From IMG/VR virus record IMGVR_UViG_3300031566_000283, positions 1 through 28,659 of that record: a stretch of DNA of 28,659 nucleotides; one strand, written 5' to 3'. Origin of the DNA: a virus. Position 1 is the stretch's first letter. Each line of letters opens with the position of its first letter. Of this stretch, positions 4,527-24,680 are shown one piece after another. The notes under the pieces were generated by a model. The model was not told the DNA's origin. It saw nothing but the letters and a program-made list of their open reading frames with translations, and did not search any database. Position numbers and translations under genes: made by a program.

Positions 4527-4555
4527 TTGACTTTTCGTCTTTTCTATGATATATT
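4527..4555 (+). promoter_or_regulatory. Sigma-70 type promoter (copy A)
   Basis: TTGACT at 4527-4532 and TATATT at 4550-4555 with a 17-base spacer. The predicted start falls at about 4562, right where the first pairing arm of the structured leader begins. It is expected to drive the leader and the first HNH gene. Confidence 0.6.
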
Positions 4556-4562
4556 TATATTG

Positions 4563-4658
4563 TCCAAAGGAGAGCGGATTTTTTATTGTTAAAATTGGGC
4601 GACTGGATGGTTGGAGAACTTAACCGTTTTCCTTTGGATACCTGAAGGTTGCCCTTTA
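4563..4658 (+). ncRNA. Pseudoknot leader RNA, copy A
   Basis: P1: 4563-4571 (TCCAAAGGA) pairs with 4630-4638 (TCCTTTGGA). P2: 4597-4604 (GGGCGACT) pairs with 4647-4654 (GGTTGCCC). The order P1a-P2a-P1b-P2b makes an H-type pseudoknot. The first loop contains TTTTTTATTGTT (4579-4590), shared with the other copies; the second loop contains a small hairpin (GGTT 4609-4612 / AACC 4622-4625). A short T-rich run follows P2b. The RNA begins at the predicted transcription start and ends about 15 bases before the HNH start codon. Family unknown. Confidence 0.65.
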
Positions 4659-4672
4659 ATTTGGAAAATAAA

Positions 4673-5281
4673 ATGAAATATAGTCGTGGGAAACATCCTA
4701 ATAGCCATCAAGAACAATGTGGATTTCAAAAAGGACATATTACTTGGCTTGCAGGAAAAAAGGGATATACTAATTCTGGTAGTATAAGAAAAAGACAACA
4801 TCATTCTCCTGCTACCGAATTTAAGAAGGGGCAACCTAAAGAAAAACATCCTAATTGGAAAGGAGGATTGCCTGATTGCTTAAATTGTGGTAAACAATTA
4901 AGTCGAAGAAAATATAAAAGGTGCAAAAAATGTTCAAGGAAAGGAATTTTAAATTGGAAATATAGAGGATATCCTCGTTCATATTATAATAAAATAGCAA
5001 GATTACGAAAAAGAAAAGCAGGAAAATTAGATTTAAAGACAATCCAATTAGTCTATGAGGATAATATAAAACAATATGGAGCTCTTACTTGCTATCTTTG
5101 TTTAAAACCTATTGAATTTAGACAAGATTGCTTAGAACATAAGATACCTCTCATTCGTGGTGGAACTAATAATTATAATAATTTAGCGATTGCTCATAGA
5201 AGTTGCAATGCTAAAAAGAAAGATAAAACTTACAAGGAGTATTTAGCAATAGAAGAAATAGAAAAAATCCTACCTAAATAA
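4673..5281 (+). CDS. HNH homing-type endonuclease 1
   Basis: I start it at ATG 4673, just after the leader RNA (202 residues). The N-terminal half is very basic and carries motifs of the kind found in homing nucleases (GFQKGH, FKKGQPKEKHPNWKGGLP) and a zinc-ribbon-like pair (CLNC...CKKC). The C-terminal HNH domain has CYLCLKPIEF, then DCLEHKIPLIRGGTNNYNNL and AHRSCNAKK: the CxxC pairs, the EH in place of HH, and the N/H helix are all visible. It is a clear paralogue of the second HNH protein in its last 85 residues. Codon use is more A+T-rich than the neighbouring genes, as expected of a mobile element. Confidence 0.8.
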   Translation: MKYSRGKHPNSHQEQCGFQKGHITWLAGKKGYTNSGSIRKRQHHSPATEFKKGQPKEKHPNWKGGLPDCLNCGKQLSRRKYKRCKKCSRKGILNWKYRGYPRSYYNKIARLRKRKAGKLDLKTIQLVYEDNIKQYGALTCYLCLKPIEFRQDCLEHKIPLIRGGTNNYNNLAIAHRSCNAKKKDKTYKEYLAIEEIEKILPK

Positions 5282-5316: not shown

Positions 5317-5344
5317 TTGACAAACTATTTCAATATGGTATAAT
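5317..5344 (+). promoter_or_regulatory. Consensus sigma-70 promoter for the RHH / Y RNA / Ro60 unit
   Basis: TTGACA (5317-5322), a 16-base spacer and TATAAT (5339-5344): both hexamers are perfect. It lies 20 bases before the ribbon-helix-helix start codon. No terminator is visible between it and the Ro60 gene, so one transcript probably carries the small regulator, the three Y-like modules and ro60. This promoter lacks the pseudoknot leader seen at the other strong promoters. Confidence 0.75.
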
Positions 5345-5364: not shown

Positions 5365-5505
5365 ATGGAAAAGGTTAGAATTGCACTAAGGGTAAAAAAA
5401 GAAATTGACAAGCGGATGCAAGAACTTGCTATAATTGAAAAATGGTCTAAAAGCAAGATTGCAGAAGTTGCTGTTGAATTTTATTTGAATGCAAGAAAGG
5501 TATAA
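5365..5505 (+). CDS. Small ribbon-helix-helix (CopG/Arc-type) DNA-binding protein
   Basis: 46 residues. It opens with a short strand (EKVRIALRVKK), followed by helix EIDKRMQELAIIE, a turn, and a second helix SKSKIAEVAVEFYLNA. The pattern of a basic N-terminal strand plus two helices with S-x-S-x-I at the second helix cap is that of ribbon-helix-helix repressors. AGAGG lies before the ATG. It sits immediately after a perfect sigma-70 promoter and 6 bases before the first Y-like RNA module. It is therefore a candidate autoregulator of the Ro60/Y RNA transcription unit. The operator is not identified. Confidence 0.7.
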   Translation: MEKVRIALRVKKEIDKRMQELAIIEKWSKSKIAEVAVEFYLNARKV

Positions 5506-5511
5506 AAATAT

Positions 5512-5574
5512 GCAGTGGCGAAGATTGGAGATACTTCTCTATGAAAGAAAAAACTCCAATCGTTTGTTCCCTGC
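5512..5574 (+). ncRNA. Y-RNA-like Ro60-binding module 1
   Basis: Outer pair GCAG (5512-5515) / CTGC (5571-5574); Ro60-site 5' strand GGCGAAG (5517-5523); stem GATTGGAG (5523-5530) / CTCCAATC (5554-5561); conserved ATACTTCT directly after the stem (5531-5538); 3' strand CGTTTGTTC (5561-5569). Known vertebrate Y RNAs have a CCGA element on the 5' strand opposite CUUGAC on the 3' strand at the same place next to a long helix. The position just upstream of a Ro60 gene supports the call. Confidence 0.75.
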
Positions 5575-5584
5575 TCAATTATTT

Positions 5585-5669
5585 GGGGTAGCGAAGATAA
5601 GAGATACTTCTATTGGCGAACGGACGCAGCCGAAAGGCGTGCACGGCTCTCTTATCGCTTGTTCTCCCC
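5585..5669 (+). ncRNA. Y-RNA-like Ro60-binding module 2, with extra hairpin
   Basis: Outer pair GGGG (5585-5588) / CCCC (5666-5669); 5' strand AGCGAAG (5590-5596); stem GATAAGAG (5596-5603) / CTCTTATC (5649-5656); ATACTTCT (5604-5611); 3' strand CGCTTGTTC (5656-5664). This module has a longer distal part with a GNRA-capped hairpin: GCAGCC (5626-5631), GAAA, GGC-G-TGC (5636-5642). It may be the effector end, comparable to the variable or tRNA-like distal part of bacterial Y RNAs. The stem differs from modules 1 and 3 while the flanks are kept, which is compensatory evidence for an RNA structure. Confidence 0.8.
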
Positions 5670-5677
5670 TTAATTTT

Positions 5678-5741
5678 TCTGGTGGCGAAGGTCAAGGATA
5701 CTTCTGCTAAAAGTTAACCCTTGAACCACTTGTTCCCCAGA
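5678..5741 (+). ncRNA. Y-RNA-like Ro60-binding module 3
   Basis: Outer pair TCTGG (5678-5682) / CCAGA (5737-5741); 5' strand GGCGAAG (5684-5690); stem GGTCAAGG (5690-5697) / CCTTGAACC (5719-5727, one bulged A); ATACTTCT (5698-5705); 3' strand CACTTGTTC (5727-5735). It ends 20 bases before the Ro60 start codon, just ahead of the AAGGAGG ribosome site. Ro60 bound here could affect translation of its own message. Confidence 0.75.
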
Positions 5742-5761
5742 TAACTAAAAGGAGGTTGTAA

Positions 5762-7093
5762 ATGGCACGAGTAAACATTAAGACGCAATCACAAGTTAAA
5801 ACTTTTGAAGGTGGCAGAGCTGTCAATTTATCCCCTGAAAAAGAACTTACCCGTGCTGTTATGACCTGCCTTTTATTTGAGAATACCTTTTATGAGAAAG
5901 GCTCTGATATGGCAGAAAGAATTAAAGAACTCTGCCAAAAAGTCAAACCTGAGTTTATCTCCGAACTTGCCATTAAAACCCGCAATGATATGCACCTTCG
6001 CTCTGTTCCCCTGTTTCTTACCCGTGAACTTGCCCGTCTAACTAAAGGAAGAATAGTTAGTAATACCTTATGCAATATTATCCAAAGACCAGATGAACTC
6101 TCTGAATTTTTAGCTATGTATTGGCTTGATGGTAGATGTCCTTTGTCTGCTCAGGTGAAAAAAGGTTTGGCTCGTGCATTTGTTAAATTTTCTGCTTATG
6201 CTTTGGCGAAATACAACCGAGATAATACTACTGTAAAGTTAAGGGATGTTCTATTTCTATGCCACGCAAAACCTAAAGACAAAGAACAAGAGGCCATTTG
6301 GAAGAAACTTATTGATGGCACTTTGGAAAGCCCCGATACTTGGGAAGTTAAACTATCCGCAGGCAAAGATAAAAAAGAAACCTTTGAACGATTGATTAAA
6401 GAAAACAAACTTGGTTATATGGCTTTACTTCGTAATCTGCGAAATATGGAAGAAGCAGGTTGCGATATTGAATTAATCTGCAATGCTTTGCTTAATAGTG
6501 AAAATATTACTAAGTCAAAAGTCCTTCCTTTTAGATTTATTGCTGCCGAGCAAAATGTATCTACTGGAAAAATAAAACAAGCAATAAATCAAGCCTTTTT
6601 GCTTTCTATCAAAAATCTTCCCAAACTTGAAGGAGTAACTATTATTTTGGTAGATGTTAGTGGCTCAATGGACGGCCAATTATCAGCCAAAAGTGATATG
6701 CGAAGATTAGAGGCTGCTTCTGCTCTGGCAGCAATTCTAAAAGAGAGTTCTCAAACTATGGTTTACTCTTTTTCTGAACATTTAATCAAAGTTACTTCTA
6801 CCAAACGAGGAATGGCTTTTATAGATGATGTGATAAATAGTCAACCTCAAGATGGCACATATTTAGGTGATGCTTTGAGACGAGTAAATGGCGACCCTTG
6901 CCAAAGAGTAATTGTTATTACTGACGAGCAAGCCCACGATGAAATTATACCTTGTTGGGCTAAATATGGCTATATTGTCAACATTGCTGGATACAAACCC
7001 TCAATCTTATATCAATCTGGTTGGGAAATGATAGCAGGATGGTCAGATAAGATTGTCAATTATATTTATGAGATAGAAAAAGTAGAGGTATAA
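5762..7093 (+). CDS. rsr: Ro60 / Rsr orthologue (TROVE domain plus von Willebrand A domain)
   Basis: 443 residues, a little shorter than animal Ro60 (about 540). AAGGAGG lies upstream of the ATG. Residues about 10-290 are an all-helical TROVE (HEAT-like ring) region, with stretches such as SELAIKTRNDMHLRSVPLFL (64-83) and NKLGYMALLRNLRNMEEAG (215-233) recognisable from the family. Residues about 290-440 form a vWA domain with an intact metal site: DVSGS (298-302), the threonine in DGTYLGDAL (T366) and ITDE (D388). Ro60 binds Y RNAs on the ring's outer surface and single-stranded ends of misfolded RNAs in its cavity. In bacteria the Y RNA tethers it to PNPase for RNA decay. Three Y-like modules lie directly upstream and a terminator-like hairpin downstream, so it forms a self-contained RNP unit. 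Confidence 0.9.
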   Translation: MARVNIKTQSQVKTFEGGRAVNLSPEKELTRAVMTCLLFENTFYEKGSDMAERIKELCQKVKPEFISELAIKTRNDMHLRSVPLFLTRELARLTKGRIVSNTLCNIIQRPDELSEFLAMYWLDGRCPLSAQVKKGLARAFVKFSAYALAKYNRDNTTVKLRDVLFLCHAKPKDKEQEAIWKKLIDGTLESPDTWEVKLSAGKDKKETFERLIKENKLGYMALLRNLRNMEEAGCDIELICNALLNSENITKSKVLPFRFIAAEQNVSTGKIKQAINQAFLLSIKNLPKLEGVTIILVDVSGSMDGQLSAKSDMRRLEAASALAAILKESSQTMVYSFSEHLIKVTSTKRGMAFIDDVINSQPQDGTYLGDALRRVNGDPCQRVIVITDEQAHDEIIPCWAKYGYIVNIAGYKPSILYQSGWEMIAGWSDKIVNYIYEIEKVEV

Positions 7094-8586: not shown

Positions 8587-8615
8587 TTGACAAATGCTCC
8601 AATAAATGATATACT
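8587..8615 (+). promoter_or_regulatory. Sigma-70 promoter (copy B)
   Basis: TTGACA (8587-8592), 17-base spacer, TATACT (8610-8615). The predicted start is about 8622, the first base of the pairing arm of leader copy B. Confidence 0.75.
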
Positions 8616-8621
8616 TTTAAT

Positions 8622-8720
8622 ATCAGCGAGGAGAGGGCTTTTTTATTGTCCAAAACTGGCGCAAAGTAGGTTGGGAAGACTTAGCCGTTTTCTCGCTGAT
8701 GACCGAAATGCGCCTTTTTT
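8622..8720 (+). ncRNA. Pseudoknot leader RNA, copy B
   Basis: P1: ATCAGCGAG (8622-8630) pairs with CTCGCTGAT (8692-8700). P2: GGCGCA (8658-8663) pairs with TGCGCC (8709-8714), followed by six T (8715-8720). Loop 1 holds TTTTTTATTGTCC (8639-8651); loop 2 holds a hairpin GGTT (8669-8672) / AGCC (8683-8686), then CGTTTT, as in copy A. The stem sequences are unrelated to those of the other copies but remain complementary, i.e. covariation. The T6 after P2b means P2, when formed, could also act as a terminator. Confidence 0.7.
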
Positions 8721-8733
8721 ATTGGAGAAGATA

Positions 8734-9330
8734 ATGGATTGGCGTAAACTACCTCGACCCTATAGAAAAACTGGAAAATTTAGGAATTGTTTACAGTGTA
8801 AAAAAAGTTTTTATGTATTTAAATCAAGATTATCAGAAAAAAAGTATTGCTCAAGAAAATGTAAACATCTTGCTCAAAAACAAACTATGGCAGGAAAAAA
8901 TAATCATTTTTATGGTAAAAAACACACTAAAAGAACTAAAGAATTAATTAGTTTAAAACATATGGGAAATCATCATTCTTCTCAAACTGAATTTAAAACT
9001 GGTAAAAACCATTTTAATTGGAAAGGAGGAATATCTTCAACAAAAGAATATAAAAAATTACATTGTACCAAAAGACATACACTTGCAGGAAATCTGTCTA
9101 TTAAACAAATTCAAATGCTTTATGAGGATAACATCAAGTACTTTGGCACATTGACTTGCTACCTTTGTTTAGAACCCATTGAATTTGGACAAGATTGTAT
9201 TGAGCATAAGATACCCATTAGTCGAGGAGGTACGAATAAATATAAGAATTTAGCAATTGCTCATAGAAGTTGTAATGCTAAAAAGAGAAGTAAAACAGAA
9301 AAAGAATATAGAAAGGAAATAGTAAAATGA
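8734..9330 (+). CDS. HNH homing-type endonuclease 2
   Basis: ATG 8734 has GGAGAAG upstream (198 residues). The N-terminus has a zinc-finger-like unit (CLQCKKSFYVFKSRLSEKKY followed by CSRKC). A NUMOD3-like helix follows (KKHTKRTKELISLKH), then a linker ending HFNWKGGIS. The C-terminal HNH (CYLCLEPIEF, CIEHKIPISRGGTNKYKNL, AHRSCNAKK) closely matches HNH protein 1, while the N-termini differ, so the two look like a domain-shuffled paralogous pair. The gene runs into the SSB-like gene by a 4-base overlap. Markedly A+T-rich codon use suggests mobility. Confidence 0.85.
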   Translation: MDWRKLPRPYRKTGKFRNCLQCKKSFYVFKSRLSEKKYCSRKCKHLAQKQTMAGKNNHFYGKKHTKRTKELISLKHMGNHHSSQTEFKTGKNHFNWKGGISSTKEYKKLHCTKRHTLAGNLSIKQIQMLYEDNIKYFGTLTCYLCLEPIEFGQDCIEHKIPISRGGTNKYKNLAIAHRSCNAKKRSKTEKEYRKEIVK

Positions 9331-11419: not shown

Positions 11420-11448
11420 TTGACAAACATATTGAAGGGGTGTAAGAT
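11420..11448 (+). promoter_or_regulatory. Sigma-70 promoter (copy C)
   Basis: TTGACA (11420-11425), 17-base spacer, TAAGAT (11443-11448). Predicted start near 11455, the first base of leader copy C. Confidence 0.7.
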
Positions 11449-11454
11449 ATAAGG

Positions 11455-11554
11455 GACAAACAGGAGGCGGGTTTTTTATGTTAGAACAATGGGTAGTTGG
11501 ATGGCTCGAAACGCTTAACCGCGCTTCTGTTTGTCGCCTGAAGGCTACCCTTTT
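11455..11554 (+). ncRNA. Pseudoknot leader RNA, copy C
   Basis: P1: GACAAACAG (11455-11463) with CTGTTTGTC (11527-11535). P2: GGGTAGTT (11491-11498) with GGCTACCC (11543-11550), followed by TTTT. Loop 1 has GGG-TTTTTTATGTT (from 11469); loop 2 has CTTAACCG (11513-11520) as in copy A. Seven bases separate P1b and P2b. A competing mini-hairpin GCCTGAAGGC (11536-11545) mirrors ACCTGAAGGT in copy A and could exclude P2. HNH 3 starts 15 bases after the T-run. Confidence 0.7.
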
Positions 11555-11568
11555 ATATGGAGGATAAA

Positions 11569-11913
11569 ATGCACAATAAACCTCATACAAAAGAAGCAAA
11601 AGAAAAAATAAGAGGCACTCTTAAAAAATGGAAAAATTACTTTAGTAAAATTAAAAAAGGTAAATTAAATCCTAACTGGCGTGGTGGAATTGCTGAATAT
11701 TTTAATCACGCTTTTATGAAGAAACAACGACTTATTATTTTAATGCAAAATCCTAAATGTGAAGTTTGTGGAAAAGTAGCTACTGAAATTCATCATATAG
11801 ATAAAACCAAATCTAATCATAAGTTATCAAATTTAATGGCAGTATGTCATAAATGTAATATAAATTTTCATTATGATGTAATTGGCAGACCAAAAAATAA
11901 AAAGAACATTTGA
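11569..11913 (+). CDS. HNH homing-type endonuclease 3
   Basis: ATG 11569 follows GGAGGA closely (114 residues). Begins with a NUMOD3-like helix (KPHTKEAKEKIRGTLKKW), then a GKLNPNWRGGI linker of the kind found in HNH 1 and 2. A compact HNH domain follows: CEVCGKVATEIHHIDKTKSN, then LMAVCHKCNINFH, with the HH pair, the CxxC knuckles and the last N/H visible. It is a minimal relative of the other two, and likewise sits behind promoter plus pseudoknot leader. The stop codon lies inside the -35 box of the next promoter. Confidence 0.85.
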   Translation: MHNKPHTKEAKEKIRGTLKKWKNYFSKIKKGKLNPNWRGGIAEYFNHAFMKKQRLIILMQNPKCEVCGKVATEIHHIDKTKSNHKLSNLMAVCHKCNINFHYDVIGRPKNKKNI

Positions 11914-11938
11914 CAAGGTTTAGATTTTATGTTATGCT
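11910..11938 (+). promoter_or_regulatory. Sigma-70 promoter (copy D)
   Basis: TTGACA (11910-11915) overlapping the HNH 3 stop, 17-base spacer, TATGCT (11933-11938). It drives leader copy D and the replication gene. Confidence 0.65.
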
Positions 11939-11950
11939 ATGATTACAAAA

Positions 11951-12084
11951 GGGGAGGCAAGAAATGAACAAGCAAAGAGTAGTTAATTTTACGACGGAGA
12001 ATTGTAGCCGTCGTTTTTTATTGTCCGGTAGGTCTGCCTCCCAAGACAGAGTAAAGAACGCTTGTTCGCCTATCGGACATTTTT
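11951..12084 (+). ncRNA. Pseudoknot leader RNA, copy D (variant)
   Basis: P1: GAACAAGC (11966-11973) with GCTTGTTC (12060-12067). P2: GTCCGGTAGG (12023-12032) with CCTATCGGAC (12069-12078, one G-U), followed by TTTTT. Loop 1 is longer (49 bases) and contains its own hairpin ACGACGG (11991-11997) / CCGTCGT (12008-12014), then the shared TTTTTTATTGT core (12014-12024). An extra complementarity GGGAGGCA (11952-11959) / TGCCTCCC (12035-12042) crosses the other stems and is probably an alternative fold. A 42-codon frame with an excellent ribosome site starts at ATG 11964 inside the element, so it may be a leader peptide. Confidence 0.6.
11991..12019 (+). terminator. Terminator-like hairpin inside leader D
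   Basis: ACGACGG / CCGTCGT 7-bp stem, 10-base loop and a run of six T (12014-12019). As drawn it could stop transcription about 60 bases after the start unless the pseudoknot or a translated leader interferes. Alternatively it is only a structural arm. Confidence 0.5.
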
Positions 12085-12098
12085 ATTTATGAGGGATA

Positions 12099-12440
12099 AT
12101 GGCAAAAAAACCAAAAGCACCGCCTTTTGTAATGCTGCGGAGAGATTTATTGAAGGATCTAGGGTGGAAAAAATTACCAAGTTCAGCAAAAGTTCTCTAT
12201 ATTTATATGCGGGCAAAGTTTAACTATAAAACTCAAGCTGAAATTAGTCTATCATACGCAGAAATGAAAGATATATTGAGCCCGGCCACAATGAATAGAG
12301 CACTTAAAGAGCTTCTTAAGAACGATTGGATAAAAAAAACTAAGCAAGGAGGCCTTTTTGGAGGTCTTTGTACTTATCAATTCAATGGTCAGTTTAAAGA
12401 CTTCTATTTTGGCAAGAGAAGCAATCTACTTTATGAGTAG
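12099..12440 (+). CDS. Winged-helix replication initiator candidate
   Basis: 113 residues, GAGGG before the ATG. Residues about 10-95 form a winged helix-turn-helix: VMLRRDLLKDLGW, SSAKVLYIYMRAKF, SLSYAEMKDI, SPATMNRALKELLKNDWI, then a glycine-rich wing (KQGGLFGGLCTYQF). This is the arrangement of the N-terminal DNA-binding domain of phage and plasmid replication initiators and replisome organisers. A tandem array of iterons begins about 30 bases after its stop, which strongly supports origin binding. It is preceded by promoter D and pseudoknot leader D. It lacks a C-terminal helicase-loader domain; the next gene may supply it. Confidence 0.65.
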   Translation: MAKKPKAPPFVMLRRDLLKDLGWKKLPSSAKVLYIYMRAKFNYKTQAEISLSYAEMKDILSPATMNRALKELLKNDWIKKTKQGGLFGGLCTYQFNGQFKDFYFGKRSNLLYE

Positions 12441-12466: not shown

Positions 12467-12620
12467 GTTTTGAGCAATCTCCAAAAAACAATTTTGTGCT
12501 TAAGTTTAATCAAAATGAGCAATCTCTTAAAATCGATTAATCAAAACTGAAGCGAGGATTAATCAAAATGAGCAATCGATTAATCAAAACTATAGTTGGG
12601 TTTAATCAAAATGAGCAATC
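12467..12620 (+). repeat. Iteron array, probable replication origin
   Basis: TTAATCAAAATGAGCAATC occurs at 12506-12524, 12559-12577 and 12602-12620. TTAATCAAAACT occurs at 12537-12548 and 12580-12591. A related TTTTGAGCAATCT lies at 12468-12480. Starts of the TTAATCAAAA cores are 31, 22, 21 and 22 bases apart, so most lie on one face of the helix two turns apart. The flanking DNA is very A+T-rich. Such iterons beside a winged-helix gene are the standard form of an initiator-bound origin. Confidence 0.75.
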
Positions 12621-12934
12621 TAATATCAAGTAAATTAGAAACTAAATTGGCTTCTGTTTATAAACAAGGATTTAATATCTACAACCTTATAGCTAAAGTC
12701 AAAAAACTAATCGGTCAGCCCAAAGATTGGCAGTTCCCGGAAGAAGTGTTGCTACGGGTGTGTGAGGCCTACGAACGCGACAAGGCGAAGATAGATAAGC
12801 CCTGGCCGTGGTTCATTAAGGTGCTTAGGGTCGAAAGCGGACTATGGCACGCCCAACAGCAGATAAATAAGAACGACAAGCAGGGTAAGTGGGCGTTTAG
12901 TATAAAAGATTTACTAACGAAAGGATCCCAATGA
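12611..12934 (+). CDS. Replication-associated protein (initiator C-terminal / loader-like candidate)
   Basis: The ATG at 12611 lies inside the last iteron; 107 residues. N-terminal helix (SSKLETKLASVYKQGFNIYN), then a segment KDWQFPEEVLLRVCEAYERD followed by KPWPWFIKVLRVES, which has the look of the C-terminal helical region of phage replisome-organiser proteins. No ATP-binding motif. Its stop overlaps the transglycosylase start. With the winged-helix gene it may reconstitute a lambda-O-like initiator whose two halves flank the origin. No good ribosome site is visible, so translation could depend on upstream reading or iteron occupancy. Confidence 0.5.
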   Translation: MSNLISSKLETKLASVYKQGFNIYNLIAKVKKLIGQPKDWQFPEEVLLRVCEAYERDKAKIDKPWPWFIKVLRVESGLWHAQQQINKNDKQGKWAFSIKDLLTKGSQ

Positions 12935-23831: not shown

Positions 23832-23853
23832 TTACAGTAGCTTAGAAAATAAG

Positions 23854-23902
23854 AGCTGTATTAGTAACCCTGAATGTTTCAGGAACTGATACGGCTTTTT
23901 TT
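23854..23902 (+). terminator. Strong intrinsic terminator before the scaffold gene
   Basis: Outer stem AGCTGTATTAGT (23854-23865) / ACTGATACGGCT (two G-U pairs), inner stem CCTGAA / TTCAGG, then seven T (23896-23902). It separates packaging/portal genes from scaffold and capsid, where higher expression is expected, though no clear promoter is visible right after it. Confidence 0.8.
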
Positions 23903-23918
23903 ATAAGGAGGAAGTAAA

Positions 23919-24680
23919 ATGGTAGTAGAAAAAGTGGTAACGCCGATTAACCCCGAAGAGGAAAATTTGGCCCCACCAGTAGTAGAACAGCCCGAGGGAA
24001 CTGAGGTAACACCTCAAGTAACCCCGATAGCAGAAGAGGAAAAACTGTATGCCGGAAAGTATAAGACGCCGGAAGAACTTGAGGCCGGATACGAGAACTC
24101 TAATAGAGAAGCAACTCGTATGGCTCAGGAAATTAAGCGTCTTACGGGAATGGTGCAATCAGCACTAACTCCCGGTGAGAAAAAGGAAGTGGAGGATAAG
24201 GTTACTGACCTTACCAAGCATTTTGACGGTGAGACCGCAAGGGTATTAAGTAATTATTTTAATAATCTTGTGGAACAGAGATTCGCTAAGAACAGTCAGG
24301 AAACGCAAGCACAAAGCGATTTCAAAACTCAAGTGTCAGAAAATTGGGAAGAAACCAAGAAACTTTATCCTGACGTCGCTAACCCTAAAAGTAAGTTGTA
24401 TCTTCGCGCAAATGAAATCCTGTTTGAGCGAAAACTTGCTACTCAAGACGCATCCGGGACTGTGCAACTATTAACCCCTTTTGCTTATAGGATAGCTGTT
24501 GAAGCCGCATCGTTGGAGTTAAGTAGGCAGACTTCACCGAGTGCGAGTAAAGGTAGGGTAGGTGCTATTGCCGGTAGGGGTTCTAAGCCAGCAACTCAGG
24601 GCAAACTTACTTATGAGCAATATATGGCACTACCTTCCGATGATGCAAGAGATGCTTACGATAAATCACAGACGCAATAA
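23919..24680 (+). CDS. Scaffolding protein
   Basis: 253 residues with AAGGAGG upstream, directly before the major capsid gene. Composition is typical of scaffold: acidic, proline-rich N-terminus (NPEEENLAPPVVEQPEGTEV), then EEKLYAGKYKTPEELEAGYE as seen in many phage scaffolds, long charged helices, and a C-terminus with KLTYEQYMALPSDDARDAYD. It is expected to guide prohead assembly and be lost before packaging. Confidence 0.85.
   Translation: MVVEKVVTPINPEEENLAPPVVEQPEGTEVTPQVTPIAEEEKLYAGKYKTPEELEAGYENSNREATRMAQEIKRLTGMVQSALTPGEKKEVEDKVTDLTKHFDGETARVLSNYFNNLVEQRFAKNSQETQAQSDFKTQVSENWEETKKLYPDVANPKSKLYLRANEILFERKLATQDASGTVQLLTPFAYRIAVEAASLELSRQTSPSASKGRVGAIAGRGSKPATQGKLTYEQYMALPSDDARDAYDKSQTQ

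Follow-up and report, generated by a model that had tools for sequence, protein, structure and literature searches.

A covarying pseudoknot leader RNA ahead of HNH nuclease and replication genes of phages

Results

The locus and its leaders

The window, meaning the whole stretch of DNA that was analysed, corresponds to a virus record 28,659 bases long. Its positions 8622-8720 carry a leader (leader B), situated between a promoter and a gene for an HNH endonuclease, at the place given for it in an earlier, sequence-only reading. The parts of the locus are:

8587..8615, + strand: promoter of leader B, TTGACA-17-TATACT, 11/12 consensus positions
8622..8638, + strand: P1a, at the predicted transcription start; P1 covariation
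8639..8644, + strand: first U-run, conserved UUUUUUAU 3' of P1a; from the alignments
8658..8663, + strand: P2a, GGCGCA, complementary to 8709-8714; P2 covariation
8664..8683, + strand: conserved joint, GUAGG...GACUUA, with a weak candidate helix (P3) inside; from the alignments
8684..8700, + strand: P1b, pairing with P1a (8622-8638); covariation
8701..8708, + strand: L3, GACCGAAA, conserved, family consensus CCYGAA
8709..8714, + strand: P2b, whose partner is P2a in the P1 loop; covariation
8715..8720, + strand: U-tract (TTTTTT) 3' of P2b, followed by the Shine-Dalgarno sequence TTGGAGAAG
8734..9330, + strand: HNH endonuclease with NUMOD3, the gene of leader B; PF01844 (E 3.4e-8) and PF07460 (E 1.2e-5)

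Helices P1 and P2 cross, P2a sitting inside the P1 loop, and so form a pseudoknot. Two other leaders of the window, A and C, follow the same plan as B, each ahead of a different HNH gene, and a fourth, leader D, precedes a gene for a replication-initiation-like protein:

4527..4675, + strand: leader A with its promoter; covariance model match at 4559-4660 (E 5e-18), A being in the training set
4561-4577, 4597-4604, 4624-4640, 4641-4646 and 4647-4654, + strand: P1a, P2a, P1b, L3 and P2b of leader A
4673..5281, + strand: HNH endonuclease, the gene of leader A; PF01844 (E 5e-8)
11420..11571, + strand: leader C with its promoter; covariance model match (E 1.7e-13), C being in the training set
11455-11470, 11491-11498, 11519-11535, 11536-11542 and 11543-11550, + strand: P1a, P2a, P1b, L3 and P2b of leader C
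11569..11913, + strand: HNH-like gene of leader C; PF13392 and PF01844 (E ~1e-3, below the curated cut-offs)
11910..12101, + strand: leader D (subtype II) with its promoter; P1 can pair in two ways and is assigned tentatively
11952-11959, 11964 and 11991-12014, + strand: P1a, start of a short ORF, and hairpin with T-run of leader D
12022-12032, 12035-12042 and 12069-12079, + strand: P2a, P1b and P2b of leader D, the last followed by T5
12099..12440, + strand: gene D, a replication-initiation-like winged-helix protein; phrog_186 DnaD-like helicase loader (E 2e-5)

Leader D did not match the covariance model of the type I leaders (those of the A, B and C plan) and is a related yet distinct subtype with an additional hairpin 5' of its first U-run. 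Subtype II leaders were seen at 11945-12101 of the window and on three other contigs (L039:1605, L282:2640-2830 and L099:2137). In D, L039 and L282, a terminator-like hairpin with T5-T7 lies within the leader and is followed by P2a, P1b and P2b. At P1a, an ATG with a Shine-Dalgarno sequence is found in D, L099 and L282, and one without it in L039. Directly after gene D, at 12506-12626, there are repeated TTAATCAAAATGAGCAATC units, possibly the iterons of an origin.

Position relative to the promoter and the start codon

The promoters of the window's leaders, beginning at 4527 (A), 8587 (B), 11420 (C) and 11910 (D), are sigma-70-like and close to consensus, A, C and D matching at 10/12 positions each, and the promoter-then-leader layout of B is common to all 25 type I copies collected (see below). 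P1 begins 4-7 nt past the -10 box in 24 of these; in the remaining one, L256, the helix had been extended too far, and an earlier scan places its P1 at +4. On this spacing the transcript would begin with the first base of P1, in agreement with the earlier proposal that each leader is the first thing transcribed. The window has one more strong promoter, a 12/12 sigma-70 consensus at 5317-5344 (TTGACA-16-TATAAT) ahead of a small gene, and no pseudoknot leader was noticed downstream of it.

Downstream spacing is equally regular. From the end of P2b to the start codon there are 16-21 nt in 17/17 copies measured, and the Shine-Dalgarno sequence lies 7-10 nt 3' of P2b, outside both helices, rather than being buried in a stem as in mobE. 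P1a and P2a are mostly 12-25 nt apart. In 20/25 type I copies a start codon (ATG, TTG or GTG) lies close to the first U-run, no more than a few bases away, and the corresponding regions of the window are 4579-4588, 8639-8648 and 11472-11480.

A family of leaders in phages

The initial pattern scans returned only a sibling phage with copy A. Further copies were obtained through relatives of the terminase and HNH proteins, with a structural descriptor run over their DNA, and by two scans with a query consisting only of the promoter and a short sequence motif; because these latter scans ignored the helices, the helices of the copies they added are a largely independent check. A covariance model, trained on 16 copies and containing P1 only, recovered the untrained copies F (E 2.6e-4) and I (E 1.7e-5) and added seven new ones (E 2e-15 to 9e-11). 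In all, 25 type I copies from ~16 phages were assembled, most of them on contigs that are fragments. Since the scans of IMG/VR contigs were motif-based, they will have missed members of the family and favoured copies with the GAAACUUAACYG core.

All share one order of parts: a sigma-70 promoter, P1 (~15 bp), a U-run, P2a, the GUAGG...GAAACUUAA joint, P1b, CCYGAA, P2b, the U-tract and the start codon, with the element itself being ~95 nt long. A record carries up to four copies: the window has three plus leader D, G029 has four, G027 three, and G021, G024 and G028 two each.

A scan by sequence only (T-run plus CTTARCCG) gave nothing other than chance matches outside the sibling phage, and a BLAST search against cultivated phages did not find the leader. 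Among the matches listed from a cellular genome collection, none of 118 stretches had the leader layout, and hence no cellular host was identified. Searches of Rfam 15 with the whole window and with leaders L270, L279 and B gave chance-level matches, nothing scoring above the gathering threshold. The leaders form a genuine RNA family of phages that had not been catalogued before.

Evidence for the fold

Across the 25-copy alignment, standard pairs fill 91.9% of cells compared to 69.7 +/- 1.4% when the 3' letters were shuffled, P1 pairing being partly favoured by the covariance model behind the alignment, and sliding the partners by 1-3 columns lowered the paired fraction to 42-59%. Two-sided changes were present at 19 of 20 pairs and in 132 cells (38.5 +/- 6.4 after shuffling), and the covariation score was 0.713 against 0.285 +/- 0.021. 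For P2, which is absent from the alignment's model, 83% of cells are paired and 6/7 pairs have two-sided changes. The letters of its strands differ between copies, such as GGACGCA/TGCGTCC in E and GGCAGC/GCTGCC in G. A hand-set alignment of 18 copies gave 214/216 paired cells for the outer 12 pairs of P1 (129 with strands exchanged between copies) and 90/90 for P2 (49 swapped), figures that are partly built in because some of these copies were selected by their helices.

The conserved unpaired parts are AUUUUUUAU 3' of P1a, GUAGG...GAAACUUAA 5' of P1b, and CCYGAA in L3. A third helix within the joint (P3, UAGGU/ACUUA, with A-U, G-U and G-C variants) is plausible in many copies, broken in several, and is not claimed. 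The leader was also considered as coding sequence, and rejected: only part of B and E is in frame with the HNH ORF, stops or different frames occur in the other copies, and the reading frame shifts from copy to copy.

Genes behind the leader

Most copies lie 5' of HNH-type nuclease genes, an association beyond the sight of the sequence-only reading. The nucleases are of several Pfam kinds (PF01844, PF13392, NUMOD3), and a few have HNH-like motifs recognized by eye without a Pfam match. Copy F precedes a Cro-like regulator (Cro/HTH_3) and copy I a phage replication protein (Phg_2220_C, PF09524, E 3e-21). On L270, a type I leader stands ahead of an ortholog of gene D (a clear resemblance on side-by-side reading), while a relative of gene D in L282 (59% identical) belongs to an operon with a subtype II-like leader at its 5' side. 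Some HNH relatives, on L034 and L035, have no leader. Inheritance with a single HNH family can be set aside, as different HNH families and non-HNH genes carry the leader, so that the element goes with a range of functions rather than with one protein family. At L260:1906-2040, an intact leader and promoter have no nuclease ORF behind them; this is either a remnant or a sign of an RNA that acts alone.

It had been proposed that several early units share one control. The sharing is supported by the multi-copy use within single phages and by the presence of the leader before several nuclease kinds, Cro-like and replication genes and the gene D ortholog; the word 'early' was read from the promoters only.

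The U-tract

The T-runs directly 3' of P2b number three in A (TTTAATTT), six in B, four in C and five in D, the last three as reported earlier. The first 8 nt 3' of P2b hold 6.24 T, and 87.5% of leaders, as against 6% of 1014 other genes of the same phages, have at least five T at positions 11-18 nt upstream of the start codon. The mean terminator U-score of the leaders was 3.45, that of hairpin terminators of the same contigs, which were chosen for TTT, was 3.60, and the background had a mean of 0.77 and a 99th percentile of 3.10, both exceeded by the leader mean. P2b is followed by a T-run, as the sequence-only reading had it, this U-rich tract is of terminator grade, and P2a is GC-rich (57% compared to 39% for the window), giving the GC-rich stem plus U-tract of an intrinsic terminator. 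The short-loop, local hairpin of such terminators is, however, missing, as the two strands of P2 have the 3' strand of P1 between them. Taken together, the U-tract lends the terminator idea circumstantial support.

In six copies (A, F, N, L256, L259 and L279) the 3' U-tract is short or broken, with three T and then A or C. That of E starts GTTTTT, and two copies start with A at full P2 length. A similarly conserved U-run follows P1a, and in type I leaders no stem or hairpin precedes it, so that U-runs in these leaders can have a role other than termination. Conserved unpaired bases would be superfluous in a bare terminator and point to a binding partner or a tertiary fold.

A competing mini-hairpin, CCTGAAGG, had been put forward as a switch. 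It is present in A and C, where it consists of L3 and the first bases of P2b, and the only local hairpin at that site, CCNNNNGG, is kept in just 5/25 copies, which speaks against a switch common to the family.

Discussion

Comparison with known leader RNAs

The closest parallel in position is the leader of gene 32 in T4 and RB69, also a phage mRNA pseudoknot 5' of the ribosome-binding site of a replication-linked gene. That element is ~28 nt long, lies 67 nt before the start codon and is bound by gp32 (PMC3014915, PMC535899), and in a 2010 review of T4 control was described as perhaps the sole viral pseudoknot in translational autoregulation (PMC3014915). The present leader differs in being ~95 nt long and ending 16-21 nt from the start codon, in having conserved loops and a U-tract, and in serving several unrelated genes per phage instead of one. 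Structured leaders on homing endonuclease genes are known from I-TevI and mobE, where a role in limiting nuclease synthesis is demonstrated or presumed (PMC3014915, PMC535899). Those hairpins contain the ribosome-binding site, whereas here the site is outside the crossing pseudoknot; furthermore, the promoter adjoins the leader, and one fold serves unrelated nucleases as well as replication genes. No precedent in these two sources (PMC3014915, PMC535899) has this architecture or its spread over several units.

The putL and putR RNAs of HK022 (~70 nt, two stem-loops) act on the zinc-binding domain of the polymerase (PMC9378689), located in beta', and through it suppress pausing and termination. 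They resemble the leader in being cis-acting RNAs near the start of phage transcripts that are repeated within a genome. The fold is different, a crossing P1/P2 pseudoknot in place of two consecutive stem-loops of ~70 nt (PMC9378689), and action of the leader on polymerase is hypothetical; the put interpretation offered earlier for the leader thus loses its structural basis.

No Rfam riboswitch model matched near its gathering score. Among riboswitches, SAM-II and preQ1-II are compact H-type pseudoknots with conserved loops adjoining the expression platform. The leader shares this H-type arrangement, with conserved loops next to an expression platform, and departs from it in its long, variable P1 and phage nuclease context. 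HEARO (IscB omega-RNA) is an HNH-associated structured RNA located directly 5' of the gene for the HNH protein. The leader, unlike HEARO, has no Rfam match and is found with small NUMOD3/HNH proteins of several families and with some non-nuclease genes. HDV-like ribozymes have the strand order P1a-P2a-P1b-P2b, a 7-bp P1 and a short J1/2. The strand order of the leader is the same, its P1 is longer, P1a and P2a are mostly separated by 12-25 nt, and again Rfam gave no match.

How the leader might act

The leader probably throttles the genes downstream of it. We tentatively favour conditional attenuation at P2b and the U-tract, with a translational operator as the next candidate. Host RNA polymerase would start at the strong promoter, exactly at P1; in the nascent leader P1 would fold first, and the loop strand P2a would then pair with P2b, closing the pseudoknot round the conserved unpaired bases (the U-run, GUAGG...GAAACUUAA and CCYGAA). 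Closure of P2 at the U-tract may make the polymerase pause and partially terminate, and the result would be a limited, adjustable supply of HNH nuclease or replication initiator from a strong constitutive promoter. The conserved core probably binds something, and its unpaired bases are a putative site where a factor or small molecule could bind and thereby stabilise or open the pseudoknot. We further propose that the harm done by an unregulated nuclease would have led unrelated HNH genes to gain or retain the module. Termination, a bound factor and this benefit are inferred, set against a fold, a position at the predicted start, a U-tract, a gene context and a multi-copy use that are observed.

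That P2 is a conditional stop at the U-tract is a reading which falls somewhat short of an even chance. It accounts for a U-tract of terminator grade and for the internal terminator-like hairpin with T5-T7 of subtype II, yet P2 is a long-range helix of a pseudoknot, with the entire 3' strand of P1 between its two strands, instead of a simple hairpin, and the conserved unpaired bases, the stemless U-run after P1a and the many broken 3' U-tracts fit it poorly. The distance of 16-21 nt from P2b to the start codon suits translational control equally well. A phage or host protein on the pseudoknot and loops might block or help 30S loading at the Shine-Dalgarno sequence, for which this spacing, the conserved unpaired bases and the precedents of T4 gene 32 and homing-endonuclease hairpins such as that of mobE (PMC3014915, PMC535899) can be cited. 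We nevertheless consider such an operator unlikely, although a serious candidate, as the Shine-Dalgarno sequence is outside P2, and the U-tract next to P2b is left unexplained. A version in which P1b hides the Shine-Dalgarno sequence was rejected, because the pairing of P1b is as strong with the Shine-Dalgarno regions of other copies as with its own (-5.65 vs -5.65 kcal/mol). A short upstream ORF may take part in subtype II leaders. If a ribosome at an AUG or UUG 3' of the first U-run opened or blocked P1 and P2, or, in subtype II, began at the SD-AUG in P1a, the start codons near the first U-run (20/25 type I) and the SD plus ATG of D, L099 and L282 would be explained; five copies have no such start codon, the peptides are in different frames with no conserved sequence, several ORFs stop in 2-8 codons, and the type I spacing from SD to start is long, so that both versions taken together seem very improbable.

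Other explanations place the effect on the RNA itself or on the polymerase. P1 is blunt at the predicted +1 and freely variable in sequence among the copies found, as would be expected if it shielded the transcript from 5'-dependent decay and raised the yield of nuclease or replication mRNA; a simple terminal hairpin would be enough for this, and conservation of P2, L3 and the joint would be unneeded, which makes the idea improbable. A put-like leader, binding the elongating polymerase in cis and conferring resistance to downstream terminators, would suit an RNA that is the first product of strong promoters, occurs several times per phage and has unpaired bases conserved across phages. It is given very little weight here, considering that the crossing ~95-nt pseudoknot is unlike the ~70-nt pair of stem-loops of put (PMC9378689), and that most copies precede a single small gene, with no evident need to pass distant terminators. 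Least probable of all is a stand-alone small RNA, for which most transcripts would have to stop at the U-tract, the ~95-nt knotted RNA with its U-tail being the product and acting in trans: a 5' helix, together with a 3' helix and U-tail, does bound a tidy transcript, and L260 has no nuclease ORF, but in almost every copy a gene follows at a fixed distance, in most cases with a ribosome-binding site, and a phage may have several copies of the one fold.

What has been found is a covarying pseudoknot family, in up to four copies per phage record, before mobile nucleases and replication initiators. It is possible, with odds leaning somewhat against, that the leader represents a new RNA class with a sensing or machinery-binding role at the starts of several units, a shared module for unrelated HNH nucleases and replication genes. 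Were it a switch, it would be a compact regulatory part and would show how free-standing homing nucleases are restrained and coupled to phage replication. The 25 natural variants, with one fold built from different stems, make a direct test possible.

Other features of the window

A long hairpin (~12 bp by eye) with T7 at 23846-23907 ends at the Shine-Dalgarno sequence of the ORF at 23919; it is an ordinary terminator with a placement like that of P2b. A Ro60-like gene was found at 5489-7093 (TROVE PF05731, E 1.5e-25, plus VWA), and directly 5' of it are three tandem hairpin-like repeats (GCGAAG...GATACTTCT...TTGTTCCC) that resemble a Y-RNA array.
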